Below are positions 8,325-23,446 of a DNA stretch of 30,594 nucleotides, piece by piece (position 1 is the stretch's first letter; every line of letters starts with the position of its first letter). The stretch is taken from positions 1-30,594 of the IMG/VR virus record IMGVR_UViG_3300027859_000057; one strand, given 5' to 3'. A model generated the notes under the pieces. It was given only the letters and a program-made list of their open reading frames with translations, was not told the origin of the DNA and made no database searches. Position numbers and translations under genes: made by a program. This DNA comes from a virus.

Positions 8325-8353
8325 AACAAAAAAAAGAACTATTAAATAATATA

Positions 8354-8920: not shown

Positions 8921-8922
8921 AG

Positions 8923-9623: not shown

Positions 9624-9859
9624 TAGACAAGATATGCAATGACTTGACCGCTGGCCAAAGTAATACTTGTAATGATACCTTCAATCTCTGATGCCACACC
9701 CATAGTAATACCATTAACAGTTGATGAACCATTCTCTGTAATTACTTCAGATACAAGAGTCACTTCTGCGGCAGCAAGACAATGAATCTTACCAAACCTT
9801 CCAGTATGTGCATTTGTGTCTGTGATAATAATTGCGGCTGGGTAGTTGTAGTTTCCCAT
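9623..9859 (-). CDS. Small beta-rich structural protein, unassigned
   Basis: 78 residues, beginning MGNYNYPAAIIITDTNAHTG and ending ITSITLASGQVIAYLV. It is almost entirely short beta strands with Ala, Thr, Val and Gly. An ASGQVIAY-type C-terminal strand is common in small phage virion proteins. It lies between the connector protein and head closure protein, has a good Shine-Dalgarno (AGGAG about 9 bases before ATG) and is four bases from the upstream gene. A decoration, fibre-base or connector-associated protein would fit; I cannot choose among them. Confidence 0.65.
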   Translation of the reverse strand: MGNYNYPAAIIITDTNAHTGRFGKIHCLAAAEVTLVSEVITENGSSTVNGITMGVASEIEGIITSITLASGQVIAYLV

Positions 9860-9863
9860 TTAG

Positions 9864-10424
9864 TTAACTCCTTTTAATAGCGACATTGCCGGGTCCACTT
9901 ATTCGTAGACCAGTAAAGTACCGTTCAAATAGTGGTGGTACTCTATCAGCACCAACAGCACCATAAAAATTAGGCTCTACATCAAGACTACCAAGTTTTA
10001 CCTTTTTGTAATCTTCAAGTCCTGATAATCCTAACCCATCTCGATTGTTATTCAAGTAAACAGCTAATATAACTTGTGCTTTTTTAACTTGTTCTGGTAT
10101 CTCTGTTTCAGAAAAATAATCTGTTGATATACGAAAAGGAAAGCCAACAGAATAAGTATTGATATATGTATCTGGTTTTCGTACACCTTGGCGAGGCCAT
10201 TGTAATGCTTGTGTATTAGTAACCCTTGCTCCTAAAAATCTTTCTCGGTCAACTCTAACTGCAGCAGTAAATAAAGCTCTGTTTTTATTATCATTACTAG
10301 AACCATCCCACGCAGAAACATCATCATCAAGTATTAAACCTTCAACAATAGAATTAGCCGCATCTAAAGTGACATAACTATTAGCTGAAGCACTACCTAC
10401 TGTCGCTGTTATTGTTATCGCCAT
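9864..10424 (-). CDS. Head-tail connector/adaptor protein (DnaT-like-named family)
   Basis: 186 residues, starting MAITITATVGSASANSYVTLDAAN. This opening, the all-helical body and the LQWPRQGV motif near residues 80-87 match the phage family often labelled 'putative DnaT-like ssDNA-binding protein'. By position that family corresponds to the head-tail adaptor attached to the portal (gp6/gp15-like). A helix with VKKAQVILAVYLNNN follows, and the C-terminus ends near GPGNVAIKRS. The label DnaT-like should not be read as a replication function here. It is located after the capsid genes and before head closure, consistent with an adaptor. Confidence 0.75.
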   Translation of the reverse strand: MAITITATVGSASANSYVTLDAANSIVEGLILDDDVSAWDGSSNDNKNRALFTAAVRVDRERFLGARVTNTQALQWPRQGVRKPDTYINTYSVGFPFRISTDYFSETEIPEQVKKAQVILAVYLNNNRDGLGLSGLEDYKKVKLGSLDVEPNFYGAVGADRVPPLFERYFTGLRISGPGNVAIKRS

Positions 10425-10527
10425 TTTTTAACTTAGGTTTTCGTTTGCGTTTTGTTTTGGGTTGAACAGAAGCCACCGCTTTGGCAGCTTCTTGTTCTTT
10501 TTTTCGCTTAAAAGCAAATAACCCCAT
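10393..10527 (-). CDS. Small basic protein, 44 residues, unknown
   Basis: The frame starts MGLFAFKRKKEQEAAKAVAS and continues with a Lys/Arg-rich stretch (QPKTKRKRKPKLKNG). Its ATG overlaps the stop of the beta-rich head accessory gene in a TAATG junction, and its 3' end overlaps the connector start by 32 bases. The overlap arrangement and clear coding-like composition argue that it is translated. A short hydrophobic N-terminal tip precedes a strongly basic body. Function unknown; charge suggests contact with DNA or with an acidic virion surface. Confidence 0.55.
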   Translation of the reverse strand: MGLFAFKRKKEQEAAKAVASVQPKTKRKRKPKLKNGDNNNSDSR

Positions 10528-10892
10528 TAACCAGCCTTAAGGATTTGGTAGTTAAGTACGATTGCTTCGCCTAATGAACCGCCAGATACGTTAGTAACTG
10601 TGATTGCAAAAGATCCAGCAGCAATAGTATTAGCTTGCACTAAATATGCGCCTGCTGTTCCACCACTTGCGTGATTAACAATAACAACATCACTTGCAGT
10701 ACATTTTGTGTTTGTAACTGCAAAAGATACTTCAGCCGCTGCTGCAAGAGCCGCGTCATCCATTGTTATAACACCAGCCACTTTACTTAAAGTGACACCT
10801 GTAGCTTTACTTGTTGCCTGCGTAACTGATCCTGTTTGATCTGAACTAACTCCAAGAGCCGTTCCCGCAGTAGCTTCAAAAACTGATGGCAT
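10527..10892 (-). CDS. Beta-rich head accessory / putative decoration protein
   Basis: 121 residues, dominated by Ala, Val, Thr and Gly, with alternating strands. Motifs include SKATGVTLSKVAGVITM, LAAAAEVSFAVTNTK and DVVIVNHASGGTAGAYL, then GSFAITVTNVSGGSLGEA and a final hydrophobic strand. It lies immediately after the major capsid gene (13-base gap), the usual place for decoration or head-stabilising proteins. I associate this strand pattern with virion proteins of many environmental phages, but the family has no name I can give with certainty. It carries a plausible AAGG ribosome site upstream. Confidence 0.7.
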   Translation of the reverse strand: MPSVFEATAGTALGVSSDQTGSVTQATSKATGVTLSKVAGVITMDDAALAAAAEVSFAVTNTKCTASDVVIVNHASGGTAGAYLVQANTIAAGSFAITVTNVSGGSLGEAIVLNYQILKAG

Positions 10893-10905
10893 AATTTAGT
10901 TACCT

Positions 10906-11937
10906 TTAGTCTTGTGTTGATACGTTAGTTGCCCTAACTATACCAATGTTTTTTGTCTCGTAGACTTTCGACCATTTGCCTACTGTTGCCAACTCTGCTC
11001 TAGTTGGGTTTACATCTGTTGTTGCCCACTTTGAACCAACTGGGTGGTAGCAATAATGAAGGTCAATAGCCATAGCATCAGATTTAGCCAAAATGTCTCT
11101 GTCTGTCTCTGTTGTTAAACCAGCTTGCTCTCCACTAGCAACTGCGCCTTGAGTAAAGAAGTATGTACTGTACTCTGTAGATGAACCACTACCAACAGTA
11201 GAAACATCATCAGAAACAATAACTCTTAAACCACAATATGTAGGAACAGTATCGTTTCCAGCGCCATAAGCAGGGGCAATAGTACCACCAGAAGCAGTAG
11301 CAGAACCTCCGTTACCATCAGATGCAAGAACATAGTCAACCATTTTTCTCTCAACGAGATCGTAGTAAACCTTACTGTGCATACAAACAGCAGTTAGCTT
11401 GTCGCCTTGATCGCCAAGAATAGCTTTTGCTTTTGCAACGTGTCTTGGAGAAAGAACAGTTGGAGTATCACCAGATCCACCATCTATTGTTAAACCAAAA
11501 AATGCTGCGTTGGAATCTGTTGTATTAACAGAACCGAAAACACCATCAAGACAAGAAAGTAAATCTTTTTGTCTTTGGTTTGCTATATAAGCACCAATCT
11601 TTTGACCGATTGCAGCCATTGGGTCTGACCCTGCTGCTAATGCTGCCAAATCTCTAGATTCAAATGCACGACCACGATGTAAAATAACTCCAACTTGTTT
11701 GTCAGTAGAAATTTTACCGGGTGTTAATGAAGATGAATCAGATAAAACCTCAAAGTCTCCGCTTAAGTTAGCTGAGAAAAAAGGTACGTTTACGAAATCA
11801 CCACCCTCTGTTGCATTTAGCTCAGCCATAGGTGCAACCACACCGCTTGCGAGAAAAGAATCTCGTGCAGTAGTTTGCTCTATGACATAAGGCGTAAATA
11901 TCTCAGGGATGATAATATCACTCCTTAGAACTGCCAT
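10906..11937 (-). CDS. Major capsid protein (gp13-like)
   Basis: 343 residues. The opening LRSDIIIPEIFTPYVIEQT and the conserved middle (RGRAFESRDLAALAAGSDPM, then IGQKIGAYIANQRQKDLL) match the 'major capsid protein 13-like' group of HK97-fold shells. Further signs are TDSNAAFFGLTIDGG, the helix with PRHVAKAKAILGDQGDKLTAV (residues ~160-180), and a C-terminal HPVGSKW...NPTRAELATVGKWSKVYE segment. No N-terminal delta domain is visible; a separate scaffold gene lies just upstream. A promoter-like sequence and a structured leader precede it (11938-12039), which would allow higher expression than its operon neighbours. Confidence 0.88.
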   Translation of the reverse strand: MAVLRSDIIIPEIFTPYVIEQTTARDSFLASGVVAPMAELNATEGGDFVNVPFFSANLSGDFEVLSDSSSLTPGKISTDKQVGVILHRGRAFESRDLAALAAGSDPMAAIGQKIGAYIANQRQKDLLSCLDGVFGSVNTTDSNAAFFGLTIDGGSGDTPTVLSPRHVAKAKAILGDQGDKLTAVCMHSKVYYDLVERKMVDYVLASDGNGGSATASGGTIAPAYGAGNDTVPTYCGLRVIVSDDVSTVGSGSSTEYSTYFFTQGAVASGEQAGLTTETDRDILAKSDAMAIDLHYCYHPVGSKWATTDVNPTRAELATVGKWSKVYETKNIGIVRATNVSTQD

Positions 11938-11966
11938 AAGTCCACAAATTTAAAATTTAACGGTGT

Positions 11967-12001
11967 GGGCGTAACCCTATATGGCTCTGCGTAGCTTTGC
12001 C
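11967..12001 (-). other. Structured leader of the capsid gene mRNA
   Basis: Within the 75-base gap before the capsid gene the minus strand holds two small inverted repeats. One is GGC-aaa-GC-tac-GC-aga-GCC (11983-12001), which starts at the predicted transcript 5' end. The other is GGG-TTACG-CCC (11967-11977). Neither is followed by a T-run, so neither looks like an intrinsic terminator. A stabilising or translation-controlling leader is the simplest reading. Confidence 0.4.
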
Positions 12002-12009
12002 TTTGTTCT

Positions 12010-12039
12010 ATACTAGCGTGTTTTGGCTATATCTCTCAA
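12010..12039 (-). promoter_or_regulatory. Predicted sigma70-like promoter for the capsid gene
   Basis: On the minus strand TTGAGA (12034-12039; five of six match to TTGACA) is separated by 18 bases from TAGTAT (12010-12015; four of six match to TATAAT). The element overlaps the 3' end of the scaffold gene, and transcription would start near 12003, just before the leader hairpin and capsid gene. Based only on consensus matching. Confidence 0.45.
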
Positions 12040-12702
12040 CTTTTGCCATGTTTCTTTGCCATGAACTTTATAAATGCGTCCTTGTTCTCCTAAATTTTCT
12101 GTTTCTCTAAGGAAAGGTTTTATCATATCTTCAGAAAAACTTGTTGAAGATGGTCTAGAAATAGGAGCACCTCCACCACTTATCGGTTTGTTTTTTAACA
12201 AGTAAGGCTTTTCTTTTTCTAATTTATTTTTTACATATTCTGCTACTGGTAATTGTTCATACCCATCTACCACAACAGGCTGACCATCTTTAATTTGTAT
12301 TTGGTCTTTAGGTACTAAATTATTTAATACCAACTCTGGATCGTGTGTTATTTCAGACAAAGCTTGTATTGCTGGTGTTATCAATTCCAGTTCTTTGTTT
12401 CTTGCTTCTAAGGTTTCTATTCTTTTTTTATCTTCAGCAGAACGATCTCGGTACTGTTGTTCAAGTGCTTGTGTAGCTTCTGTGTACTTCCCTTCACTTT
12501 CTAATTTTTCTTGATCTACTTTTTGTTTAAATGCTAACAAAGCATCATAATCTTCTGGTACAACCTTTTCTTCTTTTTGATTTTTTAACTTACCTATAAG
12601 TTCGTAGTTTTTTTGCTCTAACTTTTTGACTGATTCTTTTAACTGTTCAAGTTCGTTAGGGTTAACAGGTGGCGTAGCCACTGTTTCGTTTTCTTCTGAC
12701 AT
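12013..12702 (-). CDS. Head scaffolding protein
   Basis: 229 residues, very rich in Glu, Lys and Gln. An N-terminal coiled coil (about 15-100: PNELEQLKESVKKLEQKNYEL and so on, with heptad-like Leu spacing) is followed by ELITPAIQALSEITHDPELVLNNLVPKDQI. That acidic helical pattern, rigid rod then a short 'P.dqI' segment, is typical of phage minor structural GP20/scaffold proteins that template capsid assembly and then leave. A Pro/Gly/Ser linker (GGGAPISRPSS) leads to a C-terminal basic helix (~200-229) that would bind the capsid protein. It directly precedes the capsid gene. Confidence 0.83.
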   Translation of the reverse strand: MSEENETVATPPVNPNELEQLKESVKKLEQKNYELIGKLKNQKEEKVVPEDYDALLAFKQKVDQEKLESEGKYTEATQALEQQYRDRSAEDKKRIETLEARNKELELITPAIQALSEITHDPELVLNNLVPKDQIQIKDGQPVVVDGYEQLPVAEYVKNKLEKEKPYLLKNKPISGGGAPISRPSSTSFSEDMIKPFLRETENLGEQGRIYKVHGKETWQKLRDIAKTR

Positions 12703-12741
12703 AAATAAAGCGTAGCCTTTTTTTTATTTAATATATCAAAA

Positions 12742-13023
12742 TTATGACCATTTGACTTTATTCGCCCAAAAAGCTGCACTTGTTTTACCTTTTGCAATAT
12801 TTTTTGCGTGTCTAGCCTTAAAGGATCTTCTTTTTGCTTTATCTGCATCTGACTCGCCTTTTCTTGGCTTTTTAGTTTGTGCGCCCTGCATACCAAAACG
12901 TATTAATTTAAATCCATCTCCTTGTTTAATAACAACAGCATGGCTCTTACCACTCTTATGATTTGGTGTTCTAATTGGTTTATCAACACCAACAAATGTA
13001 TGTCCACCTCTTTCAATAGCCAT
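12742..13023 (-). CDS. Small basic conserved phage protein (RFGMQGAQ / KGKTSAAFWANKVKW type)
   Basis: 93 residues, strongly basic. Distinctive parts are RTPNHKSGKSHAVVIKQGDG, LIRFGMQGAQT, a Lys-rich GESDADKAKRRSFKARHAKNI and the end GKTSAAFWANKVKWS. I recognise this kind of sequence from many marine phage genomes, usually as 'hypothetical protein'. It starts in a TAATG overlap with the next small basic gene and ends 39 bases before the scaffold gene. The position inside the head module suggests a minor virion or packaging-associated DNA-binding role, but that is inference. A longer frame in another phase (12639-12896) lacks this conserved pattern and was not called. Confidence 0.75.
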   Translation of the reverse strand: MAIERGGHTFVGVDKPIRTPNHKSGKSHAVVIKQGDGFKLIRFGMQGAQTKKPRKGESDADKAKRRSFKARHAKNIAKGKTSAAFWANKVKWS

Positions 13024-13274
13024 TATTTTCTATAACTCCTATAAATAGCCATATCAACTGTTCTTGCTTTATCTCCTCTCATATAACTATTAACTCTGCC
13101 CATAGCCCAAGCAGCCATTGGTACATTTCTAGATCCACCAGACAAATAAGCACCTTGTCCTTTTCTGTAAACTTTTGCAAGTTCACCATATTTAAACTTA
13201 GTGCCTTCAGCCTTTTTTTTAAGGCTATTTTTTGTTGCGGCGCTTAGTGGTTTTCTTCTGCTTTTTTGTGACAT
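13023..13274 (-). CDS. Small basic protein with GxGAYxSGGSR / WAMGRVNSYxxGxKAR motif
   Basis: 83 residues from the ATG at 13274 (a TTG three codons upstream is possible but has less support). The core reads YRKGQGAYLSGGSRN, then AAWAMGRVNSYMRGDKARTVD. Short proteins with this Gly-Ala-Tyr...Ser-Gly-Ser-Arg followed by Trp-Ala...Arg-Val-Asn-Ser...Lys-Ala-Arg pattern occur in cyanophages, other marine phages and some large algal viruses, so the fold is old and widespread but of unknown function. It lies within a run of lysine-rich mini-genes between MuF and scaffold genes; overlap with the upstream gene is 50 bases. Confidence 0.7.
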   Translation of the reverse strand: MSQKSRRKPLSAATKNSLKKKAEGTKFKYGELAKVYRKGQGAYLSGGSRNVPMAAWAMGRVNSYMRGDKARTVDMAIYRSYRK

Positions 13275-13449
13275 CTTGAGCAACCCTTGATTTTTGTACA
13301 GCTTTTATATCAATAAATGCACCTTTTTTATAAAGTGCTGCTGTTCTTTTTATTTCAGCGGCCTTTGCCGATCTATTCTTTGAACCCGACAAGTATTTTT
13401 TTGGAATACCTGTTTTTTTATCTTTAGGAACCTTTCTTAGCTTTGGCAT
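13225..13449 (-). CDS. Lysine-rich small protein, 74 residues
   Basis: Starts with ATG at 13449: MPKLRKVPKDKKTGIPKKYL, then GSKNRSAKAAEIKRTAALYKKG and a very basic C-terminus (KKQKKTTKRRNKK). About one third of residues are Lys or Arg. It overlaps the downstream gene by 50 bases and the upstream 31-residue frame by 26 bases. The 'IPKKYLSGSKNRSAKAAEIKRT' pattern looks conserved-protein-like rather than random. No named family can be given; nucleic-acid or capsid-interior binding is plausible from charge. Confidence 0.6.
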   Translation of the reverse strand: MPKLRKVPKDKKTGIPKKYLSGSKNRSAKAAEIKRTAALYKKGAFIDIKAVQKSRVAQDVTKKQKKTTKRRNKK

Positions 13450-13519
13450 TTTTCTTAGGTTTACAAGTTTGGGCTGCCTGTTTTGCTTCAGACAATTTTT
13501 CTGCTAATGTTTTCGCCAT
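13424..13519 (-). CDS. Lysine-rich mini-protein, 31 residues
   Basis: A short frame MAKTLAEKLSEAKQAAQTCK followed by a Lys/Ala-rich end. Its ATG shares an A with the stop codon of the next upstream mini-gene (TAATG), and its 3' end overlaps the following lysine-rich gene. The first 17 residues form a clear amphipathic helix. Too short for family recognition; called because of the coupled start and because it is part of a series of adjacent basic mini-genes. Confidence 0.45.
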   Translation of the reverse strand: MAKTLAEKLSEAKQAAQTCKPKKNAKAKKGS

Positions 13520-13605
13520 TACTTTTTACCACCTTTTTTTACTTTCTTTTTCTTTTTAGGCGGTCTGCCTACTTTGGAACCATAAGTTCCTTTTCCCATG
13601 GGCAT
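13519..13605 (-). CDS. Mini-protein MPMGKGTYGSKVGRPPKKK-type, 28 residues
   Basis: The frame reads MPMGKGTYGSKVGRPPKK and ends in a Lys/Gly tail. The 'GKGTYGSKVGRPPKK' string is one I have met repeatedly as a tiny hypothetical protein in environmental phage genomes, which makes translation likely despite the length. The GRP-P-KKKK part resembles an AT-hook (minor-groove DNA binding, core GRP). It is the first of the basic mini-gene series after the MuF gene and is coupled to the next frame by TAATG. A role on packaged DNA is a guess. Confidence 0.6.
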   Translation of the reverse strand: MPMGKGTYGSKVGRPPKKKKKVKKGGKK

Positions 13606-13639
13606 AGTTTTAAAGCAACTACATTAATAATAACTGTTT

Positions 13640-14815
13640 TTATGCCTTAGGGTATTTTTCAATTAGTTTTTTTAAACTTAGCTCTGTACCGTCATCTTTA
13701 ATAATTAACCGCAAAGCCTCTCTCGGACTCTTTCTTTTTTTATCAATTAGATAATTAAAAAACTTTTTTTTATTTCCTAATGCTTTCTCTTGTATCGAAG
13801 GATTATCTTTTAACCACGTTGCATAATTAGTATTTTGCGGAACTCTACCAGTTGCACTCGGTCTAGTATCAGGGAACTTTCGTCTTAAATCATCATCATC
13901 AATAATAGGAACAGTGGTTGATCTACAATTAAAATGCTGTGGTGGTAATGGTCCTTCGTTATATTTAAATGTTCTACCATCTAAGTTTCCACAGATGGTA
14001 CTTGTTCTTGCATCTAAAGTTGCAACATATTCATACCTTTGAGTAACATTTCCATTAGAAGCATATGAAGCTTGACTTACCGCATTTTGTACTTGGTTAA
14101 CAGAAGTTCTAACAATAGTCATAACTTGCGTGTTAGCTAGTTTCATTCCATCGCCAGCAGCTAATCTCTGTGCCTTGGCAGTCATCTCTTGATTACGACC
14201 AAACTGCAAACGACCTCTTAATCTTTTTGCAATCTTTGGTATAGATTCGCCTTCTGTAATACCAATACGAATCTGACTTGATATTAGTTCTGTCTGTTTT
14301 TTAGAAATACCACGAAATGCTTTTGATACAACTTCGCCACTAGGTAATGTAATAGCAGAACCTTTAGCAGCAGTAAGGTTAAATGTTCTTTGGACAGTTG
14401 ATTCTAAATTATTTGGTAGGGTTAATATATTTACTTCTGTTGGATCAGTCATAACAATACTTCTTGCAAAGTCTGGTGAGACTTGTACTGTATTAACACC
14501 AACAGCACCTACTGGTAAAACTTTTTGTAATTCATCAGCAATAAAACCAGATTGAAATACAGCTAAACTTTGTAGTTCATCAACCATCAAAGCAGAACTA
14601 CTTGTAGACCAAGTTTCCAAACTTTCTTTCATTTGTACCAACATAGCCCTTATTCTTGCTACTGTTGCTGGTGCTGTTACTTCATCAATAGTTGCTAATT
14701 TATTCGTTAAATCTAAAATTACATTGTTGTAATTCGTAATAATTCTACGAGCAACTTGGTTGCTGTAGCGGTTTAAGTCAATCGCCTCTCTGTAAAAAGT
14801 TTCTGGTGTTGACAT
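13640..14815 (-). CDS. SPP1 gp7/MuF-like minor head protein
   Basis: 391 residues. The C-terminal MuF/phage head morphogenesis domain is clear: TLDARTSTICGNLDGRTF, then PPQHFNCRSTTVP (residues ~265-310), containing the conserved Cys, Asp and His-x-Asn-Cys-Arg-Ser pattern. The N-terminal two thirds is helical with a basic segment around residues 195-225 (RIGITEGESIPKIAKRLRGR). Proteins of this family bind the portal and enter the procapsid; in SPP1 they help DNA ejection. It begins just after the portal stop codon (three-base gap). There is no toxin or ADP-ribosyltransferase domain fused to it. Confidence 0.88.
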   Translation of the reverse strand: MSTPETFYREAIDLNRYSNQVARRIITNYNNVILDLTNKLATIDEVTAPATVARIRAMLVQMKESLETWSTSSSALMVDELQSLAVFQSGFIADELQKVLPVGAVGVNTVQVSPDFARSIVMTDPTEVNILTLPNNLESTVQRTFNLTAAKGSAITLPSGEVVSKAFRGISKKQTELISSQIRIGITEGESIPKIAKRLRGRLQFGRNQEMTAKAQRLAAGDGMKLANTQVMTIVRTSVNQVQNAVSQASYASNGNVTQRYEYVATLDARTSTICGNLDGRTFKYNEGPLPPQHFNCRSTTVPIIDDDDLRRKFPDTRPSATGRVPQNTNYATWLKDNPSIQEKALGNKKKFFNYLIDKKRKSPREALRLIIKDDGTELSLKKLIEKYPKA

Positions 14816-14818
14816 TGA

Positions 14819-16252
14819 TTAAGCAGCATTTTGTTCTGGCTCTGAACTTTCCTCTGGTTCTTGTGGTTCTGCTTCTTCTTTTGGTTGCGCCATTTCAATA
14901 AGACCACCATTTTGTGTTGCTTCTAATTCTTCCTCAACATCAAACTCATCTCCAAGAACCTCGCCCTCAGTAAGTTGGTCAAGTAATGTTTTCTGAGTAA
15001 TAGATCCAGAAGTGTACAAAGTAAGTAATGCTTGTATTTCTTGTGGTTCTAATCTTTGTGAGAGGAAGTCTCTGTTTACAAAACAACTACCAGCCTCTGA
15101 GTTTAGGTACTGGCCATGAAACATAAGACAGTTATCAATCATATCTTGCATCTGTTGGGCTACTACCATCATTGTTGAATCGCCTTGTGATCTATCAATA
15201 CGTTTTGCCTCTGCTGTTTCTGCTGATAACTTTTGTCCAAGTACTGCAGCAAGTCCTAATTCATTTATCTGGCTTTCTAATCTGTCTAATCTTCTGAACT
15301 GAGCATCATAACTTTTACCATCTGGTTCTATATATTCTGCTCGACCATCTGCTGGAAATGCAATAGCCTCTCCGGGGCCAGCACTAACCTCTTCAGCATT
15401 TTGTGGAAAACCATAAAAAGCAAGCATTGGTACTGCTGATATATGTAATTGGTTATCAAGATCAGATTGTATCTGATAAGCTTTTAAATTTAATTCTGCT
15501 ATATCAGCCATTGGTGGTCTTGATTCTAAAAGATTCACTCTGTTTGAATAAGCAACAGAAAAAGGGATTTTATTTAAAGGCATAGTGCCTTCATCTACTT
15601 TTACGAACTTTCCTGTCTTAGCTTTTCTGTGTATTTCAAAATTGCCCGGAGTTAATAACCTTACTTGCTCAACAATCTTTTCTCCATAAAGACCATCTGG
15701 TTCTGATACCTTTTCAAGAAGTCTTAACTGAGTAAATTGTAAAGAACCATCTACCATTTCTGTTCGCCAACCCAGAATATCTCTTGGTGTATATGTTACC
15801 CAATATGGTCTACCACTATTTCCAGTTGCTGGAGCATCTACCAATACTCCAATATGACCATAACGAATCATCTTGCGAGCAGTCTCATAAGTCCAAACAT
15901 TAAGATCATTTCCCTGCAAGTCCACATCAAATAACATCTCTCTTATATTGTCTGCCGTATCACTAAGCCTTACTGGTTTACGAGTTAACATACCAGCCAA
16001 CATTCTTTCTAATCTTAAAAAGTAAGGAGGACAAACAGAACGAGCTAATCTATTGTCATAACTCTCATCTAATTCTCGCGGCTCTTGTCCCAAATATTTT
16101 CTATGTTTTGCCCTCATCTGATATGTACCACCCAACAAATCTTCAATCAACATCCAATGGGGTTCTTGCTGATACCAGTTACTATTAGGGTCATTTATCT
16201 CAGTACCACTTGTTGCTGTCTGTCTGTTGTAATGGCTATATCCTGAGTACAC
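14819..16252 (-). CDS. Portal protein, DUF4055 family
   Basis: 477 residues with a GTG start at 16252 supported by GGAG about eight bases upstream. Family features are the N-terminal WMLIEDLLGGTYQMRAKH, KYLGQEPRELDESYDNRL, then LERMLAGMLTRKPVRL, GHIGVLVDAP and YTPRDILGWR, followed by the long helical stem. The C-terminus is very acidic (last 45 residues mostly Glu, Pro, Gln, Ser). Portals form the dodecameric DNA entry ring at one capsid vertex. The gene lies between the large terminase and MuF genes, the usual order. Confidence 0.9.
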   Translation of the reverse strand: MYSGYSHYNRQTATSGTEINDPNSNWYQQEPHWMLIEDLLGGTYQMRAKHRKYLGQEPRELDESYDNRLARSVCPPYFLRLERMLAGMLTRKPVRLSDTADNIREMLFDVDLQGNDLNVWTYETARKMIRYGHIGVLVDAPATGNSGRPYWVTYTPRDILGWRTEMVDGSLQFTQLRLLEKVSEPDGLYGEKIVEQVRLLTPGNFEIHRKAKTGKFVKVDEGTMPLNKIPFSVAYSNRVNLLESRPPMADIAELNLKAYQIQSDLDNQLHISAVPMLAFYGFPQNAEEVSAGPGEAIAFPADGRAEYIEPDGKSYDAQFRRLDRLESQINELGLAAVLGQKLSAETAEAKRIDRSQGDSTMMVVAQQMQDMIDNCLMFHGQYLNSEAGSCFVNRDFLSQRLEPQEIQALLTLYTSGSITQKTLLDQLTEGEVLGDEFDVEEELEATQNGGLIEMAQPKEEAEPQEPEESSEPEQNAA

Positions 16253-16292
16253 TTTTTGACTCCATAGTTTGTTTATAGTTTAGACAATAATC

Positions 16293-17633
16293 TTAATAAA
16301 GCCTAATACCAGTTTTGCGACCAGCGGACATATGTAAGGGATTGAACAATCGCCAAGTAATGTAACCAAGGGCATCATTCATATGATCGTACCCTGCATC
16401 TTTGTCTGGTTCACCTCTTTCGTTATAACTTTGTAATTCTAAACATTCAATTAATTTTATTGCTTTCTTTGAAATCATTAACCTAGTTTCACTTTTACCA
16501 TTTAATAATAAACCTTGAACAGAATTAACTCTATCTCTTACAGGGGGATTAGATAATGCAGACTGATTAACAAAGCCATAACTTTCTAATATTTGGATGT
16601 CGGTCTTTGAAGCATTTGTACTTCTGTTGCCACCTGACGCATCAGGATATACATAGATTTTGTTGAAAGGGTACCTTGCTTTAATTTCTTTAGCAATGGT
16701 ATCTGTGTCGTGACTCTTGGCGATTTCATCTATAACCATAAATTTATTACCAACTGCCACACCTATTACTGCATTCATATTGCCAATGTTAAAGTCAATT
16801 CCAATCCTTAATGGTTCATTATCATCTACATAAGGATCATTCTGTAATACATGGGTATTGCGATTAAATTTGTCATATACTTGACCGGTAGTTAAATTGC
16901 AGAAGTTACCGTTTAAGTATGCTTGTATTAGCTGTGGTGGGTAGTTTTCAAGTAATGAATCAATAAATCCGTCTGGAAGATAAGGGTTATCTGCTGTTCT
17001 TGCTTTTATTAACCGAGTGTCCTCTTTGGCGTTTTTTTCGAAGGTATCAAACGCCCATGAATGACCTTCTGGTGTAGTAGTTGCATAAAACTGCTGTACA
17101 TTACCTGAGCGCAGTCTAGCAAGTGCCATGTTCATTGCTTGTTCGGCATCCCGCTTTGCAACAGTATCTGCTTCATCAAAACCAACAGCACATAAGTTTT
17201 GACCACGCAATCTTTGGTAAGTAAGAATTGTCCTTAACAAGATCGTATGTACACCTTCCTTAAATTGCAGTTGGTACTCTGGCAATGGACTAGCTCTAAA
17301 TGTATATGGTATTTGCCATTCATCTAATAAATCATTCATAGTTCTCATAAGAATATCTCGAAGCATTGGTGCAGTTGGTTCAAAAATTGCTGAAATATGA
17401 CCAACATTCATTGAAGCTAACAATACAGATTTACTTACAAGTGCATATGTTTTACCAGCACCAAAACCACAAACAAGTGCTAACTTTCTATGCTCTGTAT
17501 CTGCGCAAAACTTTTCTTGATGCGGTAATAAATTAGAGGTAATTCTATCTTGGACTGCCTTTGCAGTAGGTATATCAAATAGACCATCGCCAAATAATAC
17601 ATGGCCTTTTTTAACTGTTTCAAGAATACTCAT
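16293..17633 (-). CDS. terL: Terminase large subunit
   Basis: 446 residues from the ATG at 17633, which overlaps the small terminase stop as ATGA; a TTG six bases further upstream is less likely. ATPase domain: Walker A GFGAGKT near residue 57, Walker B with LCAVGFDEAD near 150, coupling motif ATTTPEG near 190. Nuclease (RNase H-like) domain: first acidic strand IGIDFNIGNMNAVIG near 280, second YPDASG near 330, and the final acidic motif DHMNDALGYI near 425. All key residues are present, so the packaging motor should be functional. It recognises DNA with the small subunit and docks on the portal encoded next. Confidence 0.95.
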   Translation of the reverse strand: MSILETVKKGHVLFGDGLFDIPTAKAVQDRITSNLLPHQEKFCADTEHRKLALVCGFGAGKTYALVSKSVLLASMNVGHISAIFEPTAPMLRDILMRTMNDLLDEWQIPYTFRASPLPEYQLQFKEGVHTILLRTILTYQRLRGQNLCAVGFDEADTVAKRDAEQAMNMALARLRSGNVQQFYATTTPEGHSWAFDTFEKNAKEDTRLIKARTADNPYLPDGFIDSLLENYPPQLIQAYLNGNFCNLTTGQVYDKFNRNTHVLQNDPYVDDNEPLRIGIDFNIGNMNAVIGVAVGNKFMVIDEIAKSHDTDTIAKEIKARYPFNKIYVYPDASGGNRSTNASKTDIQILESYGFVNQSALSNPPVRDRVNSVQGLLLNGKSETRLMISKKAIKLIECLELQSYNERGEPDKDAGYDHMNDALGYITWRLFNPLHMSAGRKTGIRLY

Positions 17634-17953
17634 GAACAAAGATCAGCTAATTTTGCTGCTGTATTAATCGCACCAAGAGCAATATTTAGTTGTCCATTTC
17701 TTCTTGCTTCCATTTGTAAAGTACTGCACTGACTTAATAAATCAGCAATCATCTGTGGCCTTTCTATATCCCAATCTGCCCTAAGTTGTACCCTTGCTTC
17801 TTTTAAATAATTATCAACAGTTCGTTTAGTTACCCCCCAGTTTGTTGAAGCGTATTGAATACAATCAGACCTTCTACCTCCATTAGCAATTATCCTTGCG
17901 CATCTTGCAATACGCATTTCTGTTTCTGCTTGAGTTGTTAATGATGCTGCCAT
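17630..17953 (-). CDS. terS: Terminase small subunit
   Basis: 107 residues with an N-terminal helix-turn-helix: RIARCARIIANGGRRSDCIQ and WGVTKRTVDNYLKEAR form the DNA-binding unit. It is followed by a helical oligomerisation segment (IERPQMIADLLSQCSTLQME) and NGQLNIALGAINTAAKLADL. That layout, plus immediate coupling (ATGA) to the large subunit, supports the call. It starts in a TAATG overlap with the upstream methyltransferase gene, so the methyltransferase is in the same transcript as the packaging genes. Confidence 0.85.
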   Translation of the reverse strand: MAASLTTQAETEMRIARCARIIANGGRRSDCIQYASTNWGVTKRTVDNYLKEARVQLRADWDIERPQMIADLLSQCSTLQMEARRNGQLNIALGAINTAAKLADLCS

Positions 17954-18606
17954 TATGCTGGTTTTTCTATTAGGTATCCTGAGAAATCGCCAAATCTGAA
18001 CCAGTTAATAAATTCGCCAGCAAGTTGATCTTCTGTAATTGGTCTTTGTACACCTGACAATGATAATTCTTTTTCAATAATTTCATCAGCAGAAGTTCCA
18101 GATGCGGTTTTACCAGCAAGTGTAAGACGGTAGAAAACAGTTGAAGCGTAGCCACCAATTGGTTCTAACTTGTCAAAGACAATGATTGCCCCTCCGGGTT
18201 TACATTTCTCTCTTAGTCTTAGCATAAGATTAAATCTTTTGGCTGGTGGAATAAACATTAAACATAAAAATAAAACAGATAAATCAAAATCTTTTGCTAT
18301 AAATGTTTCTGCTTTGCTGCATATTATTTCGCCCGGAGCTTTGTACAGTTTTATCATTTCTTGACTTGGTTCTATACCAATTAAGTGTGCATTTCTTTTT
18401 TTAAGTATTGGTGCTAATGCTCTACCAATATTTCCAGTAGATGCACCAAAATCATAAACAAGGCCATTTTCTGGTATGTAATGTCTGGCTACATGAAGAA
18501 TCGCATTTGTTGCGAGGTCATACCAAGGCAGTTGTTCTCTTACATGACGATCAAAACCTTGAGCAACACCAGAGGTTTCAAAAGACCAGTTTGTTGGTAT
18601 ATCCAT
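17953..18606 (-). CDS. SAM-dependent methyltransferase, CmoA/TehB-like class I fold
   Basis: 217 residues. Motif I is VYDFGASTGNIGRAL (residues ~50-64; D-x-G-A-x-T-G-x), motif II LIGIEPSQEMI near 76-86, and the motif IV region LSVLFLCLMFIPPAKRF, with PGGAIIVFDKL as motif VI/strand 5. The N-terminal part (FDRHVREQLPWYD) resembles the CmoA family, which acts on tRNA wobble uridine via carboxy-SAM. The motifs only place it in the class I methyltransferase group, and the substrate could be a small molecule, tRNA or DNA base adduct. It lies between a 52-residue gene and the small terminase, at the end of the modification-type cluster 17953-21112. Confidence 0.8.
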   Translation of the reverse strand: MDIPTNWSFETSGVAQGFDRHVREQLPWYDLATNAILHVARHYIPENGLVYDFGASTGNIGRALAPILKKRNAHLIGIEPSQEMIKLYKAPGEIICSKAETFIAKDFDLSVLFLCLMFIPPAKRFNLMLRLREKCKPGGAIIVFDKLEPIGGYASTVFYRLTLAGKTASGTSADEIIEKELSLSGVQRPITEDQLAGEFINWFRFGDFSGYLIEKPA

Positions 18607-18765
18607 TTAAAACAAATCAGAAAGTGGGTTTAGTTTTTCATTAGTTATGTCATACCATTTATCATGGCCATTAAAATCTTCCAGAAATTCATAAGTTTTT
18701 TTGCTATATACACAATAAAAAATCATACCAACGTAAGGATTTGTAGGAAATTTTGTTTTCAACAT
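18607..18765 (-). CDS. Small protein between two methyltransferase genes, unknown
   Basis: 52 residues: MLKTKFPTNPYVGMIFYCVY, then SKKTYEFLEDFNGHDKWYDI, then a short tail ending in PLSDLF. Its ATG overlaps the stop of the cytosine methyltransferase by seven bases, and its stop is directly followed by the ATG of the CmoA-like gene. This perfect fit, together with the aromatic-rich non-random composition, makes it a real gene. The length and 'FYCVYSKKTYEFLEDFNG' pattern fit a small accessory domain; I do not recognise a family. Confidence 0.65.
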   Translation of the reverse strand: MLKTKFPTNPYVGMIFYCVYSKKTYEFLEDFNGHDKWYDITNEKLNPLSDLF

Positions 18766-19817
18766 TTTTCTAATATTTCTTTGGCAATAGTTTCTGCAAC
18801 TTTGGCCATCATAAGTGGTGGTACAGCCCTACCGACTCTTTCCCATTTTTGGTACAGATTACCATGCAAAATAAAATCGTCAGGAAAACTGCTGATTCGT
18901 TTTAGTTCTTGAATAGTAAACAAACGAGGTTCTGACCAATGGTATTTATCCATGGTTCCTTGTACAACAGTATTGGCAACACGAAATGGCGATTGCTTTA
19001 CATGAGAAAAGAATTTATTTTGTCCAGTAAGTTTTAATGCAGCTTTATAAAATTGGTCACCGGGCTTTGTAAGTTTCCAAAGGCGATATGTTTCTGTACT
19101 CGGATCAATTTTCTTATAATCATCAGATTTTTCTACACCAATTAAAGCTTCACCAACTGAATATTGATATGGCATAGGCTTAGGGTGTGCTGGTTCTATA
19201 TTTAAATCGTTTCTAACTCCTACAAAGATTGTTCTCTTACGCATCTGTGGCACACCAAGCCATTGAGCATCAAGTACTTTACATTTTACGTTATAACCAC
19301 AGTCTTTGAGTTTAGTAATAATGCGTTTAAAGTAACCTTTTGCTGTACCTTGAACAAGGCCAGCAACATTTTCTGCTACAAATACTTTAGGTTGTAGTTC
19401 ATTAAGAATACGAGCATATTCAAAGAATAAATCATCTACCCTTTGCGTTGTTTCGCTGTATTTTTTTTCTTTACCCCAACCAGCCTCACGTTTACCACCG
19501 ATAGAAAAAGCAGCACAAGGTGGAGATCCATCAAACAAATCTAGCTCACCTTTTTGGAGGTTAATCTTTTCAAGAATATCGTCTGCTGTAATTTTTCTTA
19601 TGTCTCTAGGATCAAGAAAACTGTTTGGGTGGTTAGCTTTGTAAGTTTGTCTTGCGGATTCTATAAATTCGTTTGCATAAATTACTTTATAACCAGCAAT
19701 ACGATAACCAAGACAAGAACCACCACAACCAGAGAATGTTGAAGCAACTTTAAAACCATTCCACGGTGTTGCTTCTATTTCTACCATAGAAGGAATTTTG
19801 TAGATTGGTTTAGGCAT
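18759..19817 (-). CDS. DNA (cytosine-5) methyltransferase
   Basis: 352 residues from the ATG at 19817, which has AAAGG six bases upstream and overlaps the preceding stop by eight bases; a start at 19865 would overlap by 56 bases. All core motifs are in order: motif I STFSGCGGSCLGYRIAG, motif II YANEF, motif IV DGSPPCAAFS (catalytic Cys in PPC), motif VI ENVAGL, motif VIII QMRKRTIFVGVR, a target recognition region (~215-290) and motif X ERVGRAVPPLM. It should therefore be active, transferring methyl from SAM to C5 of cytosine, or possibly serving as the first step of a larger modification. No partner endonuclease is encoded nearby, so self-protection is more likely than restriction. Confidence 0.92.
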   Translation of the reverse strand: MPKPIYKIPSMVEIEATPWNGFKVASTFSGCGGSCLGYRIAGYKVIYANEFIESARQTYKANHPNSFLDPRDIRKITADDILEKINLQKGELDLFDGSPPCAAFSIGGKREAGWGKEKKYSETTQRVDDLFFEYARILNELQPKVFVAENVAGLVQGTAKGYFKRIITKLKDCGYNVKCKVLDAQWLGVPQMRKRTIFVGVRNDLNIEPAHPKPMPYQYSVGEALIGVEKSDDYKKIDPSTETYRLWKLTKPGDQFYKAALKLTGQNKFFSHVKQSPFRVANTVVQGTMDKYHWSEPRLFTIQELKRISSFPDDFILHGNLYQKWERVGRAVPPLMMAKVAETIAKEILEKC

Positions 19818-20634
19818 AGATGCCTTTTGCGATTCTGTTATAGATACCAATGGGTGATTTAGCATTTAATTTATACTTAGAAATTACCGCATTACCTACT
19901 CTATGTGCAATCTTACTATCGCCTAGCTGTAAGTTTGTATGAGGTTTTATTTTAAGGAAATCTAATTCAGGATAATGCTTGCGAATAACCTCTTTTTGCC
20001 TTGGCTTGTTTAATTCTTCCCAGTTTTTGTCTATCCATAAAGAAAAAACAGAAGGCTCAAAATATGGGTTACAAAGTTGTATTTTGTTTAGTTCACATAG
20101 TTTTATAAGTCTTTTAGTACCAGCAGATTCTAAGTTTGAGAAATAATCTTGCCTAAATTTTTTAAACTTTTGGTCATCTTTTGAGTAATGAATCATTGCT
20201 TTTTTAGAAAGACCAAAGTGCCCATCAGCGGCAACACCTGTCACAAGTGTCTCATCTTCAAATTCTTTCATTATTTTAATCAAGTAATAAAAAGGGAAAA
20301 GGCACTCTATTGCAGTTTTTTTCTTACAACCTACTTTTTTTATAAGATGTTTTACTGTCTCAACAATCTCATCTCTGTCTGTCGGTAACCATACAGGAAC
20401 AAAAGTAAGATTAAATTGCCAAGCTAGTTTTCTTGCCGCTTCAAAATCTGATGAAAATTTATCACCGAAACTAAAAGAATATATTCTGACCTCTTTACCA
20501 ACATCAAGAGCAGAAAGAACAACAGATGATGAATCCATGCCACCTGAGGTTGCAACACAAATTTTATTTGGTAGTGGTTTGATTATGTCTTGTAGAACAG
20601 TCCGAATATTATTTTGCTTTGCCACTCCACTCAT
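19810..20634 (-). CDS. PP-loop ATPase of asparagine-synthetase C-terminal type
   Basis: 274 residues from the ATG at 20634 (26-base overlap with the ParB-like gene). The nucleotide-binding PP-loop reads ATSGGMDSS at about residues 28-36, the S-G-G-x-D-S signature of N-type ATP pyrophosphatases. A second site VTGVAADGHFG near residue 140 matches the Gly/Asp-rich loop of the asparagine synthetase synthase domain. The N-terminal glutaminase domain of AsnB is missing, so ammonia or another amine would have to come from elsewhere. PP-loop enzymes adenylate a carbonyl or carboxyl before amidation or thiolation. Placement between a ParB-like gene and a DNA cytosine methyltransferase suggests a nucleotide or DNA-base modification, not amino-acid metabolism; this is inference. 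Confidence 0.75.
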   Translation of the reverse strand: MSGVAKQNNIRTVLQDIIKPLPNKICVATSGGMDSSSVVLSALDVGKEVRIYSFSFGDKFSSDFEAARKLAWQFNLTFVPVWLPTDRDEIVETVKHLIKKVGCKKKTAIECLFPFYYLIKIMKEFEDETLVTGVAADGHFGLSKKAMIHYSKDDQKFKKFRQDYFSNLESAGTKRLIKLCELNKIQLCNPYFEPSVFSLWIDKNWEELNKPRQKEVIRKHYPELDFLKIKPHTNLQLGDSKIAHRVGNAVISKYKLNAKSPIGIYNRIAKGIYA

Positions 20635-21112
20635 ACCCACAAGAAGGACATCTATGTTCAGTTTCAATATCTTCGTCTACATCTTTAAAATCTTCGGGTG
20701 CTTCTGTATCTGTTCTATCGTCCATAAGCTCTGTTAAATCTTCTGGTTCAAACCAAGGGTCTATTTCATGTTCCATTGAAAGATGGTGCAGCATAGATGC
20801 GTCCCAATCAGAAAGATCAGAGGATCTGTTATCAGCTAAAGCTAAACCAACTTTTTGATCTTCAGTAAGACCAGTACGTTTTACAGCAATAATTTCGTTA
20901 CCATCAGATTCTATGATGCGAACATTCTCTAAACCAGCAGCTTTTGCACCTTCTACAGTACCGTTACCAGCTAAAACACGACCATCTTCATCAATAACAA
21001 TGGATCTTGCGGCACCATATCTTTTTAAGGATTCTTCAATAAGAGTGGCAGAACGGTCTGTCCTTTTTCTTGCGTTTTTGTGGTCTGCCTTTAGTTCGTT
21101 AATTTTGGTCAT
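20609..21112 (-). CDS. ParB/Srx-fold protein with C-terminal zinc-ribbon-like motif
   Basis: 167 residues. The N-terminal ~90 residues are a ParB N-domain: LKADHKNARKRTDRSATLIEESLKRYGAAR, then VIDEDGRVLAGNGTVEGAKAAGL, where the AGNGTVEGA loop corresponds to the ParB nucleotide-binding box. The middle LADNRSSDLSDWDASML is also typical. A long acidic linker leads to HRCPSCGYEWSGKAK, half of a zinc ribbon (only one Cys-x2-Cys pair, perhaps completed by His or by dimerisation). Phage ParB-fold proteins next to methyltransferases are often thought to act as nucleases or CTPase regulators in DNA modification or processing. It is the first gene of the modification-like cluster. Confidence 0.82.
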   Translation of the reverse strand: MTKINELKADHKNARKRTDRSATLIEESLKRYGAARSIVIDEDGRVLAGNGTVEGAKAAGLENVRIIESDGNEIIAVKRTGLTEDQKVGLALADNRSSDLSDWDASMLHHLSMEHEIDPWFEPEDLTELMDDRTDTEAPEDFKDVDEDIETEHRCPSCGYEWSGKAK

Positions 21113-21114
21113 AG

Positions 21115-21159
21115 TTATTTGTTTTTTAAAATTTTAGCAATATCAATAAGATTAGTCAT
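21115..21159 (-). CDS. Possible 14-residue leader peptide
   Basis: A frame MTNLIDIAKILKNK whose ATG overlaps the stop of the preceding gene by eight bases and whose TAA lies two bases before the ParB-like start. It fills the only gap at this point. It may be a coupling leader that hands ribosomes to the ParB-like gene. It could equally be chance. Confidence 0.3.
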   Translation of the reverse strand: MTNLIDIAKILKNK

Positions 21160-21430
21160 TATCAAAACCTCTGTTAAGTTTTATTGTCCAATTTTTTAAA
21201 CTCTGGAATGGTTTACCGTGTTTTTCTGTTTTACTAAATTCACCAGTTTGAATGTCTATAGGTACCAAAGTAACCCAAACATCATCGAATCTTGCAAAAT
21301 TATCTGTTCCAAGTCCATCAGACATATCAACAAAAAAATCATCAATGCGAAAGTTTTTTCCACTTTCATCAGATATCCATGCGCCTTTTAGATCATCTAA
21401 TGATAATAATGACTCAAAATTTAGTTTCAT
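21152..21430 (-). CDS. Hypothetical acidic protein, 92 residues
   Basis: MKLNFESLLSLDDLKGAWIS opens a mixed alpha/beta protein with FARFDDVWVTLVPIDIQTG and NWTIKLNRGFDND. It is acidic in the first half. The start overlaps the upstream gene stop as ATGA. I do not recognise the family. Location between the Cys-rich replication-associated gene and the ParB-like gene gives no clear function. Confidence 0.65.
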   Translation of the reverse strand: MKLNFESLLSLDDLKGAWISDESGKNFRIDDFFVDMSDGLGTDNFARFDDVWVTLVPIDIQTGEFSKTEKHGKPFQSLKNWTIKLNRGFDND

Positions 21431-21978
21431 GTTACCTCCTGTTTGTCTGCCATGGATTCAACGATAGCTTTTTCTGAAGTAAAAGAAAACATATTGCCTA
21501 TATTAGATAAATTTTCTTTGACAACTTGTATGTAGTAAGGAGTTTCTACTTTTTCACCATTTATTCTTTTTTTTCTTAGTTCGTTCATTTCTTTAGAAGT
21601 CTTTTCCCATGCTGCTTGTCTGTTTGTATGTATCTGCCTTATCTTTTCTTTTTCCATAGTAATACCGATTGGTTGTGGATCTCCTCTTAAAGTTTCTGTT
21701 GTTTTGACTTGACCATTAGATTCTCTGAAGCCTTGTTTTTCTTTATTGGTGCTGCTTTCATAGTCAGCATAAGCAGCTTTACAATGGCAGATTATCGCTA
21801 AATCTTGTCCACCATTTATCTTTCCATCTGATGTTCTGTCATAATCTGGTATAAATTGATTAATGGCATTATCGCCATTAGTAACAATACCAGAGTCGTA
21901 ACAGGCAAAACATTCTACTTTAGGGATATAAAACGTAGTGTCTCGATCAAGAGATTGCCTTCTGTAGCTTAAAGTCAT
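21427..21978 (-). CDS. Cys-rich protein next to the replication initiator, possible zinc finger
   Basis: 183 residues. Near the N-terminus CFACYDSG (C-x2-C at about residues 23-26) is followed by a segment to IICHCKA (about 63-68; C-x-H-C arrangement), a plausible four-ligand zinc site. The second half is a Glu/Lys-rich helix (about 107-145). In many phages, a short zinc-binding protein next to the initiator-like gene takes part in helicase loading, but no P-loop or DnaC-like motif is visible here, so that role is only a possibility. It begins six bases after the initiator-like gene and is coupled by ATGA to the next. Confidence 0.65.
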   Translation of the reverse strand: MTLSYRRQSLDRDTTFYIPKVECFACYDSGIVTNGDNAINQFIPDYDRTSDGKINGGQDLAIICHCKAAYADYESSTNKEKQGFRESNGQVKTTETLRGDPQPIGITMEKEKIRQIHTNRQAAWEKTSKEMNELRKKRINGEKVETPYYIQVVKENLSNIGNMFSFTSEKAIVESMADKQEVT

Positions 21979-21984
21979 AAGAGG

Positions 21985-22797
21985 TTAAAAAGGTAGACTG
22001 CCATTGGGTTTATCTTTTTCCCATGGCTTTTTATTAGTTGTATCAGTTTTTTTCTGTTTGTACAGGGCATCTTTCTCATCTTTTACATAGCCCTCGTAAT
22101 ATTCATCCCTTAACCATCTAAAACAATTAGGGAAACAAACGGCAAAGCCACCTTCTTGTTCTGTAGCTCTTTGTTGTTTAATGGCAGCTATAAGAGAAAT
22201 TTTTATATTAACTGGACTTGTTCTCTTTATAGCTTTTTTCCATTCTTCCCATGCTTTAGGTTTATTTTGGCCACTAGCCCTTTTTTTAATATCTAGATAA
22301 AGAAACCAAAATTCTAAAAATTCTTCAGAATAATCTTTTTTAGTATTTTTTTTATTTAGTTTAATTGGATCTAGTTTAGTTGTATCTAGTTTGGTAGCAT
22401 TTGCTGCTATGGGGCATGGCATTTCCTGCCATGGGGGCATAGCATCTGCTGCAGGGGTGCAGGATTTGCCACGCCTATCAATACTAGGTTCTGGAACATT
22501 AGCTAGATGCCAGACAGTTACTTTATATAAATTACTGCCTTGCTCTCCATTCTTACCCATCTGGTGGGTTCTTTCTAAGAAACCTAAAGACACTAATTGG
22601 TTAACAACTTTCTGTGCTGTTCTCTTACTTAGACAAGAATTAGCAGCGATTGTCTTTAAAGAAGGCCAGCATTTTTGGTCATCTTTATTAGCATAACTTT
22701 GTATGACCCAAAGTACTGCTAGTTGATTCGGTTGGATTTTTCCTCTAAGATTTGTAGGAAGTGCAGTAAATTGATACCCCTGTGGATTAAATGACAT
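21985..22797 (-). CDS. Phage replication protein with N-terminal winged helix (initiator-like)
   Basis: 270 residues. The N-terminal ~95 residues form a winged helix of the type found in phage replisome organisers: AVLWVIQSYANKDDQKCWPS, LKTIAANSCLSKRTAQKVV and LVSLGFLERT, then NLYKVTVWHL. The CWPS...T-A...S..T pattern is characteristic. The C-terminal part has FWFLYLDIKKRASGQNKPKA and AVCFPNCFRWLRDEYYEGY, resembling the region after the linker in DnaD/DnaT-like or phage O-like proteins. It probably binds the phage origin and recruits the host helicase. The start codon overlaps that of the divergent RusA gene by seven bases. Confidence 0.8.
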   Translation of the reverse strand: MSFNPQGYQFTALPTNLRGKIQPNQLAVLWVIQSYANKDDQKCWPSLKTIAANSCLSKRTAQKVVNQLVSLGFLERTHQMGKNGEQGSNLYKVTVWHLANVPEPSIDRRGKSCTPAADAMPPWQEMPCPIAANATKLDTTKLDPIKLNKKNTKKDYSEEFLEFWFLYLDIKKRASGQNKPKAWEEWKKAIKRTSPVNIKISLIAAIKQQRATEQEGGFAVCFPNCFRWLRDEYYEGYVKDEKDALYKQKKTDTTNKKPWEKDKPNGSLPF

Positions 22798-23216
22798 CTT
22801 TTAAATTTTCTGTAAATGGACTTGAGGCAGCACCACAGGGAAGTAAAAAGTATGTCGGTAAGGGTCGAATGATAGAAGTGAGTAAAAGGGTAAAACCATG
22901 GCGAGAATTAGTTAAAAGGGAAGCTAGTAAAATAAATCAACCACCAATAAAGGGTGCTTGTTCTGTTGAGGCCACTTTTAGATTTAAGCGGCCGAAAGCT
23001 CATTATTACTCAAATGGCAGTCTCCGTACAGGGTCTCCTTTAAATTTGACTATAAAAAGGAATGATATAGACAAGCTTGTAAGGTCTAGTTTAGACGCTT
23101 TAAGCGGAATTACTTTTAATGATGATAGTCAAGTAACATTTTTAACGGCAAAAAAAAGATATTGTTTAGAAGGAGAACCAGTAGGAGCAGATATTTTTGT
23201 TAAGTCACTTGAATAA
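22791..23216 (+). CDS. rusA: RusA-family Holliday junction resolvase
   Basis: 141 residues, the usual RusA length. The N-terminal strand SFKFSVNGLEAAPQGSKKY matches the family opening (G-x-P-x-x-Q-G/R). The catalytic acidic residues occur as KRNDIDKLVRSSLDAL (about residues 89-104) and FNDDSQV (about 109-115), the D-x-D-K...D...D-D-x-Q signature. RusA cuts four-way DNA junctions during recombination or before packaging. It is the first rightward gene; its ATG overlaps the initiator-like gene's start, so it needs a promoter lying inside that gene or must be read by a transcript that begins there. Confidence 0.92.
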   Translation: MTSFKFSVNGLEAAPQGSKKYVGKGRMIEVSKRVKPWRELVKREASKINQPPIKGACSVEATFRFKRPKAHYYSNGSLRTGSPLNLTIKRNDIDKLVRSSLDALSGITFNDDSQVTFLTAKKRYCLEGEPVGADIFVKSLE

Positions 23217-23217
23217 A

Positions 23218-23309
23218 AATCAGGGGATAGATCAGTCAACCTCTTTGTAACCGCCCTGCCATTACAGCTTTCAGCCCTCGTGTTGCAATGGGCATCAGGC
23301 TCCCTGATT
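23218..23309 (+). ncRNA. Candidate structured RNA, possibly C4-type antisense RNA
   Basis: This 92-base stretch is about 51% G+C, far above its surroundings, and has no coding gene. It is closed by a perfect 8-base inverted repeat, AATCAGGG (23218-23225) with CCCTGATT (23302-23309). Inside, TGCCATT (23257-23263) pairs with AATGGGCA (23287-23294, one bulge), and GCT-TTC-AGC forms a small hairpin (23267-23275). A local hairpin ATCAGG/CCTGAT (23294-23308) competes with the outer stem, giving two exclusive folds. The order CCGCC, GCCATTACAGC, TTTCAGCCC, GGGCATCAGGCTCC resembles my memory of C4/CI antisense RNAs of phages P1, P7 and P4; I cannot verify it here. The strand is uncertain: read leftward, the element ends in a T-run (CCCTGATTTTT). 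Confidence 0.45.
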
Positions 23310-23328
23310 ACTTTAATAATACACAATA

Positions 23329-23361
23329 AACAAAAAAAAGACCCTTTGTACAGGGTAGTTT
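23329..23361 (-). terminator. Intrinsic terminator, mainly leftward
   Basis: A 5-base-pair hairpin ACCCT-TTGTAC-AGGGT (23341-23356) is flanked on its left by a run of eight A's. On the minus strand it therefore reads as hairpin then TCTTTTTTTTG, a good rho-independent terminator for the leftward DUF3085-like gene. Rightward it is followed by AGTTTTAT, a weaker T-tract that could also stop RusA transcripts. Confidence 0.75.
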
Positions 23362-23446
23362 TATAGAAAGGCGGTAAGGTGGTTTTTTAAAGAAAGATTA
23401 CTTACGCTTTAATGATAACAATAGTACCTAGTCAACCTTAAGCTAG

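Follow-up and report, generated by a model that had tools for sequence, protein, structure and literature searches.

A conserved structured RNA upstream of the late genes of marine cyanosiphoviruses, with copies in Synechococcus genomes

A 30.6-kb virus record (30,594 nt in total, analysed over its whole length and referred to here as the window) carries on its minus strand, from position 23309 to 23218, a structured RNA for which IMG/VR yielded about 100 copies, on contigs akin to the Prochlorococcus siphoviruses MED4-117, MED4-184 and P-HS2. The phage RNA always lies upstream of the terminase or portal genes and on the same strand. The family is not in Rfam 15, the catalogue against which it was compared, and priority of discovery is not certain.

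The first-pass annotation had singled out this 92-base stretch as a GC-rich non-coding element closed by an 8-bp inverted repeat, and inspection of the letters bears this out: AATCAGGG at 23218-23225 and CCCTGATT at 23302-23309 form the repeat, ATCAG is found at 23219, 23231 and 23294 and CTGAT at 23304, and the G+C content is 51.1% versus 35.6% for the window, a value equalled or exceeded in only 0.38% of the window's 92-base stretches. The 8-bp repeat on its own is unremarkable, since 16 perfect 8-bp inverted repeats with a span of 80-110 nt occur in the window, and folding of the single sequence against shuffles gave a weak signal, with z of −0.62 for the plus strand (no better than the shuffles) and −1.63 for the minus strand. 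That the element is more than chance follows from its homologues, in which the outer stem changes as pairs. The RNA and its helices in the window are as follows.

23218..23309, minus strand: structured RNA, 5' end at 23309 and 3' end at 23218; outer stem P1 pairs 23309-23302 with 23225-23218
23274..23293, minus strand: hairpin P3, GCCC (23293-23290) with GGGC (23277-23274)
23258..23268, minus strand: short helix P2', GCU (23268-23266) with GGC (23260-23258)
23230..23255, minus strand: hairpin P5 with a bulged A, CGGUU (23253-23249) with GACUG (23237-23233)

The covariation that the first-pass annotation had proposed to look for in related phages is present. In a MAFFT alignment of 41 diverse sequences (A1), five helices are formed with 96.8% of cells paired and 15 pairs showing double changes; compensatory cells number 137 versus 41 in shuffles, none of the 500 shuffles reaching this value, and the signal is abolished when the helix partners are shifted in a sliding control. 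In a tree-simulated control, in which each alignment was refolded, the real data gave 21 pairs, 12 of them with compensatory change, and 116 cells, whereas the best of 100 simulations reached 12 pairs, 2 with compensatory change, and 16 cells. P1 occurs in the relatives as AATCAGGG/CCCTGATT, ATGAGGG/CCCTCAT, GUCGGGG/CCCCGAC and GCUGGGG/CCCCAGC. Compensatory changes are also found in P3 (helix 20-24/39-43 of A1), which is flanked by the almost invariant CUGAU (23298-23294) and UGAAA (23273-23269), and in four pairs of P5 (helix 99-104/133-139), which is paired in all 41 sequences. The P2' helix (GCY/RGC) exchanges C-G for U-A, with 31 CG, 6 UA and 2 UG in A1 and 59 CG, 10 UA and 4 UG in 75 phage and cell copies, and we preferred it over the helix P2 (AGC/GCY) proposed by RNAalifold, because P2 varies on one side only. 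In most relatives P2' encloses a AUACAACA loop and a further hairpin, P4, both of which are missing from the window copy. Five phage loci (L182, L188, L216, L244 and L260) carry tens of extra bases inside the P4 hairpin, so that P4 appears as a tolerant, variable arm. Comparison by eye of CUGAU..UGAAA with hammerhead and kink-turn motifs revealed no cleavage-site logic, and this candidate was dropped.

Read as the window's minus strand, the paired columns contain 89 G-U cells versus 3 A-C cells, and the RNA is therefore encoded by the minus strand (23309 to 23218). In the window's own P5, two pairs that are G-U when read on the minus strand become A-C on the plus strand. Of the two covariance models built, R1 matches the window at 23308-23219 on the minus strand with 71.9 bits (E 2e-14) and R2 scores the window copy at 60.1 bits, although both models were built with the window sequence included and its membership is by construction. 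The window copy carries P1, P3, P2' and P5, CUGAU/UGAAA and GGCAGGG as in the family (R1/R2).

The window's portal protein is 75% identical to that of cyanophage KBS-S-2A and 63% identical to those of MED4-117, MED4-184 and P-HS2. The first lead to homologues was a weak blastn match (E 0.08) to a syntenic copy that directly follows the RusA gene in P-HS2/MED4-184; a blastn query of the phage collection with one member RNA gave no match. Members were gathered by a RusA search, by two DNA pattern scans of IMG/VR, the first returning chance matches for the most part, and by covariance-model searches. The window type has a TCAGGG or ATGAGGG stem and a convergent RusA gene, the P-HS2 type a GUCGGGG stem and likewise a convergent RusA gene, and in a third, Synechococcus-phage-like type the RNA stands between two genes of the same strand. 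A single copy per genome was found in 24 of the 27 virus records searched, and none in KBS-S-2A and S-CBS1 within the same set, so that the RNA is dispensable in the wider group. In the window it sits between the stop codon of a plus-strand RusA-like gene, 1 nt from the RNA 3' end, and a minus-strand DUF3085 gene, with the following features around it.

23331..23365, both strands: bidirectional intrinsic terminator, stem 23341-23356, between the DUF3085 gene and the RNA
23316..23321, minus strand: TATTAT, a −10-like hexamer and putative promoter element judging from its sequence; the start is predicted at 23309, where P1 begins
22791..23216, plus strand: RusA-like resolvase gene, convergent (Pfam PF05866, E 1.8e-12); the arrangement recurs in 31 loci
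173..22797, minus strand: leftward operon of ORFs downstream of the RNA, virion genes included
21985-22797, minus strand: replication protein, HTH_36/DnaD-like
17630-17953, minus strand: small terminase-associated ORF of 107 aa, from the ORF list
16293-17639, minus strand: terminase large subunit, PHROG 2
14819-16252, minus strand: portal, assigned from portal relatives

The bidirectional terminator is retained in the window-type relatives, and in most of 13 of these T8 and a TATTAT, TACAAT or TATAAT hexamer occupy the equivalent position, the hexamer 6 nt before P1. The gene directly upstream of the RNA (23447-23830 in the window; DUF3085 or others) varies among close window-type relatives while terminator, −10 box and RNA stay constant, marking a local gene-exchange hotspot. 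Terminase or portal genes lie downstream on the RNA's strand in all 75 loci where either could be located, many of these loci being close relatives so that the counts are not independent events; the intervening genes vary and the terminase is 0.4-5.6 kb away. In one locus (G007/L277) the terminase belongs to PHROG 15, compared with PHROG 2 in the window, and the late-gene synteny holds there too. In the types other than the RusA types, the RNA begins 2-7 nt past a stop codon (64/75 loci).

When 84,980 species genomes were scanned for the pattern, further copies came to light in Synechococcus sp. AG-670-F04, which has about 20, and in one uncultured Synechococcus genome, in both cases flanked by bacterial genes. 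Within the family of AG-670-F04, 33 of 251 sampled genomes are carriers, with 1 to about 20 copies each, and a class-wide genome survey found no carriers beyond those of the family sample. The typical host order is stop codon, RNA and intrinsic terminator, many copies starting from a few to about 25 nt past the stop codon and being followed by a strong terminator. Host copies are both dispersed and clustered, some stand at contig ends (G180), and the ORFs upstream of them are unrelated, encoding small secreted or unknown proteins, RTX proteins and others. Units of gene and RNA, often with a terminator and with unrelated ORFs, follow one another at 0.5-10 kb spacing in a cassette-like manner in G255:C2 (2379-2405 kb), G228:C1 (1550-1579 kb) and G023:C10 (L337-L340, L290); neither integrase nor transposase was found among ten array ORFs scanned. 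Several of the host genes that end in the RNA (L290, L294, L317, L339, L343 and others) are preceded by a conserved 5' leader of about 110 nt (..GATGGTGTGTTCATCGGGGGGANGACCTCCACACA..ATG), which is possibly a second regulatory element forming a pair with the RNA, or else the opposite boundary of a mobile unit. In a Synechococcus genome (L286/L289), the RNA (L286, 2313-2216) follows a small-peptide gene with a double-glycine-type leader (..LNQLQQISGG), and both lie near TolC- and HlyD-like secretion genes.

Rfam searches at lax thresholds of the window, the phage members and the host copies returned no family above threshold; 6A (E 0.13, window 18380-18435, minus strand), mir-363 and Fungi_SRP were sub-threshold and at chance level. 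The first-pass annotation had read the element as a C4-type antisense immunity RNA, and the comparison is understandable, since C4 (RF01695; P1/P7/P4) is likewise a phage-encoded structured RNA of about 90 nt with an outer stem and nested pairings. However, neither the window nor the 151 bases at 23190-23340 matched RF01695 or any other C4-type model with E up to 10, the consensus and gene context differ, and the RNA is constantly accompanied by the late terminase/portal operon, not by an antirepressor or immunity gene. The proposed pairing of ACCGCC with GGCGGT at 23370 lacks its partner in some relatives, the element side varies (GGCAGUC, GGCGGAC), and the RNA has no conserved target; the ATCAG/CTGAT letters of the proposed two-fold switch are lacking from P1 in most relatives. 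What stands of that annotation is thus a structured RNA with compensatory changes, while C4 identity, to which we attach next to no probability, falls together with the switch and the target. The structured RNAs manA, wcaG and PhotoRC-II also come from marine cyanophages and metagenomes (PMC2864571), but none matched in the window or the member loci, and unlike them the new RNA is not linked to metabolic genes.

The nearest Rfam family is sRNA-Xcc1 (RF02221), a small RNA carried by integrons, plasmids and transposons and first found in Xanthomonas. There it was confirmed by Northern blot as an 88-nt transcript (PMC2996969) and is part of the most widespread integron cassette (PMC12444791). RF02221 scores 29.5-29.8 bits on cellular copies or loci like them, with 29.8 bits for a cell copy against a gathering cut-off of 53 bits, and none of 121 host-family genomes, nor the window, gave a match above this cut-off. 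In both families outer-stem letters GUCGGGA/UCCCGAC enclose a stem that holds the loop AUACAA and the hairpin CCC-GNAA-GGG; GAA and a second hairpin come next, and the core in common is AUACAA-A-CCCGNAAGGG-AA. True sRNA-Xcc1 members from plasmids share the outer-stem letters and AUACAA-A-CCCGNAAGGG-GAA and have no P3, whereas the cyanobacterial and phage family has the extra P3 hairpin with CUGAU/UGAAA; the AUACAA-x-ACCCGNAAGGG-GAA core in its stem is found in host copies and many phage copies, but the AUACAA/P4 core is absent in the window copy. R1 does not match true sRNA-Xcc1 members, and R2 ranks one of them first, its best match in a N. vulgaris plasmid locus lying at the RF02221 site (17.5 bits, E 0.025). 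From these sequence likenesses a distant kinship of the two families appears likely but is unproven. One host-family genome (L347, G100:C39:41785-41887) contains an sRNA-Xcc1-like RNA without P3, sub-threshold at 29.5 bits, which is possibly an intermediate between RF02221 and the new family.

With fold, strand, homology and synteny established, we infer the function of the phage RNA to be that of a cis-acting element, a reading that we hold tentatively and at somewhat less than even confidence. The RNA would act at the head of the late transcript in the window type, or within it in the other types, its fold governing elongation, processing or translation, and a host factor that recognises the cellular copies as well probably binds it. 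In the window, leftward transcription would begin at 23309, in all probability from the −10 box at 23321-23316 directly past the bidirectional terminator, which would place the fold at the extreme 5' end of an mRNA that crosses the RusA gene in antisense and continues into the genes for replication, terminase and capsid. We infer action in cis because an RNA working in trans could do without such constancy of position and strand, and the synteny in 75/75 loci, including the terminase of another family in G007/L277, is consistent with it; however, the synteny may be inherited or reflect timing, host copies at gene 3' ends are ill-suited to a leader element, and KBS-S-2A and S-CBS1 do without the RNA. 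No conserved sequestration of a ribosome-binding site and no conserved terminator follow the phage copies, and the window's late operon holds few intrinsic terminators, so that no expression platform emerged. The putRNA of HK022 is a structured RNA of similar size near a phage promoter, likewise heading a long operon, but it consists of two stem-loops of about 70 nt and acts in early operons (PMC9378689), whereas the present RNA forms a closed multihelix junction in a late operon. The few terminators argue against a need for put-like antitermination, which we retain as an idea only.

The main rival of a cis-acting element is a stable trans-acting sRNA of about 90-120 nt, with its own promoter or cut from longer transcripts and linked to late genes by timing only, because of the likeness to sRNA-Xcc1 and the terminators behind many host copies. 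The common core (GUCGGGA..AUACAAGACCCGNAAGGGRAA..UCCCGAC), the proven transcript in Xanthomonas and the −10-like box of the window-type phages agree with it, but R1 misses the true sRNA-Xcc1 members, the window copy lacks the core, and no conserved single-stranded seed is apparent outside the structural loops, nor a conserved target. Such an RNA would also not require its strand and place to be constant in 75/75 loci. We regard it as a possible but doubtful explanation.

A different origin is suggested by the multiple host copies behind unrelated ORFs, the second conserved leader upstream of some RNA-carrying genes and the G180 copies at contig ends, namely that the RNA belongs to mobile units of host genes (5' leader, ORF, RNA and terminator) of which phages captured one copy, its function there being incidental. 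This we consider improbable, as phage copies are single, strongly conserved and hold their place across large divergence, and the array ORFs scanned offered no mobility gene; an integron attC site was rejected, the GTTRRRY/RYYYAAC core boxes being absent and the ends GUCGGGG/CCCCGAC-like throughout. Less probable still is that the element works as DNA, as a packaging start, an origin or a recombination site, with a symmetry that mimics an RNA fold. Phage copies are close to replication protein and terminase genes, but their orientation is fixed relative to transcription, and host copies stand next to terminators without replication or terminase genes. P-HS2 is known to have direct terminal repeats (PMC7852597); its deposited record has ∼500-bp direct repeats at the ends (L281/L282) and the RNA 13.8 kb inside, at 13799-13914 on the plus strand of MT490303, and this excludes a packaging end for this phage.

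Taken together, these data add a conserved structured RNA family, beyond Rfam 15, for abundant marine microbes and their viruses. We see only a modest chance that it is a new RNA class that makes up the 3' end of units resembling cassettes (shared leader, variable small secreted-protein gene, RNA and terminator) in marine Synechococcus-type genomes, distantly akin to sRNA-Xcc1 and domesticated by siphoviruses as a fixed controller of late genes. No late-gene regulator of cyanosiphoviruses was identified in this analysis, and the association of the RNA with late genes throughout the loci examined provides an entry point to their control. The host copies suggest a multi-copy regulon or a cassette system open to testing in culture, and sRNA-Xcc1, given its likeness to the new RNA, could gain a wider family. 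The isolated carriers P-HS2, MED4-117 and MED4-184 make the RNA experimentally accessible.
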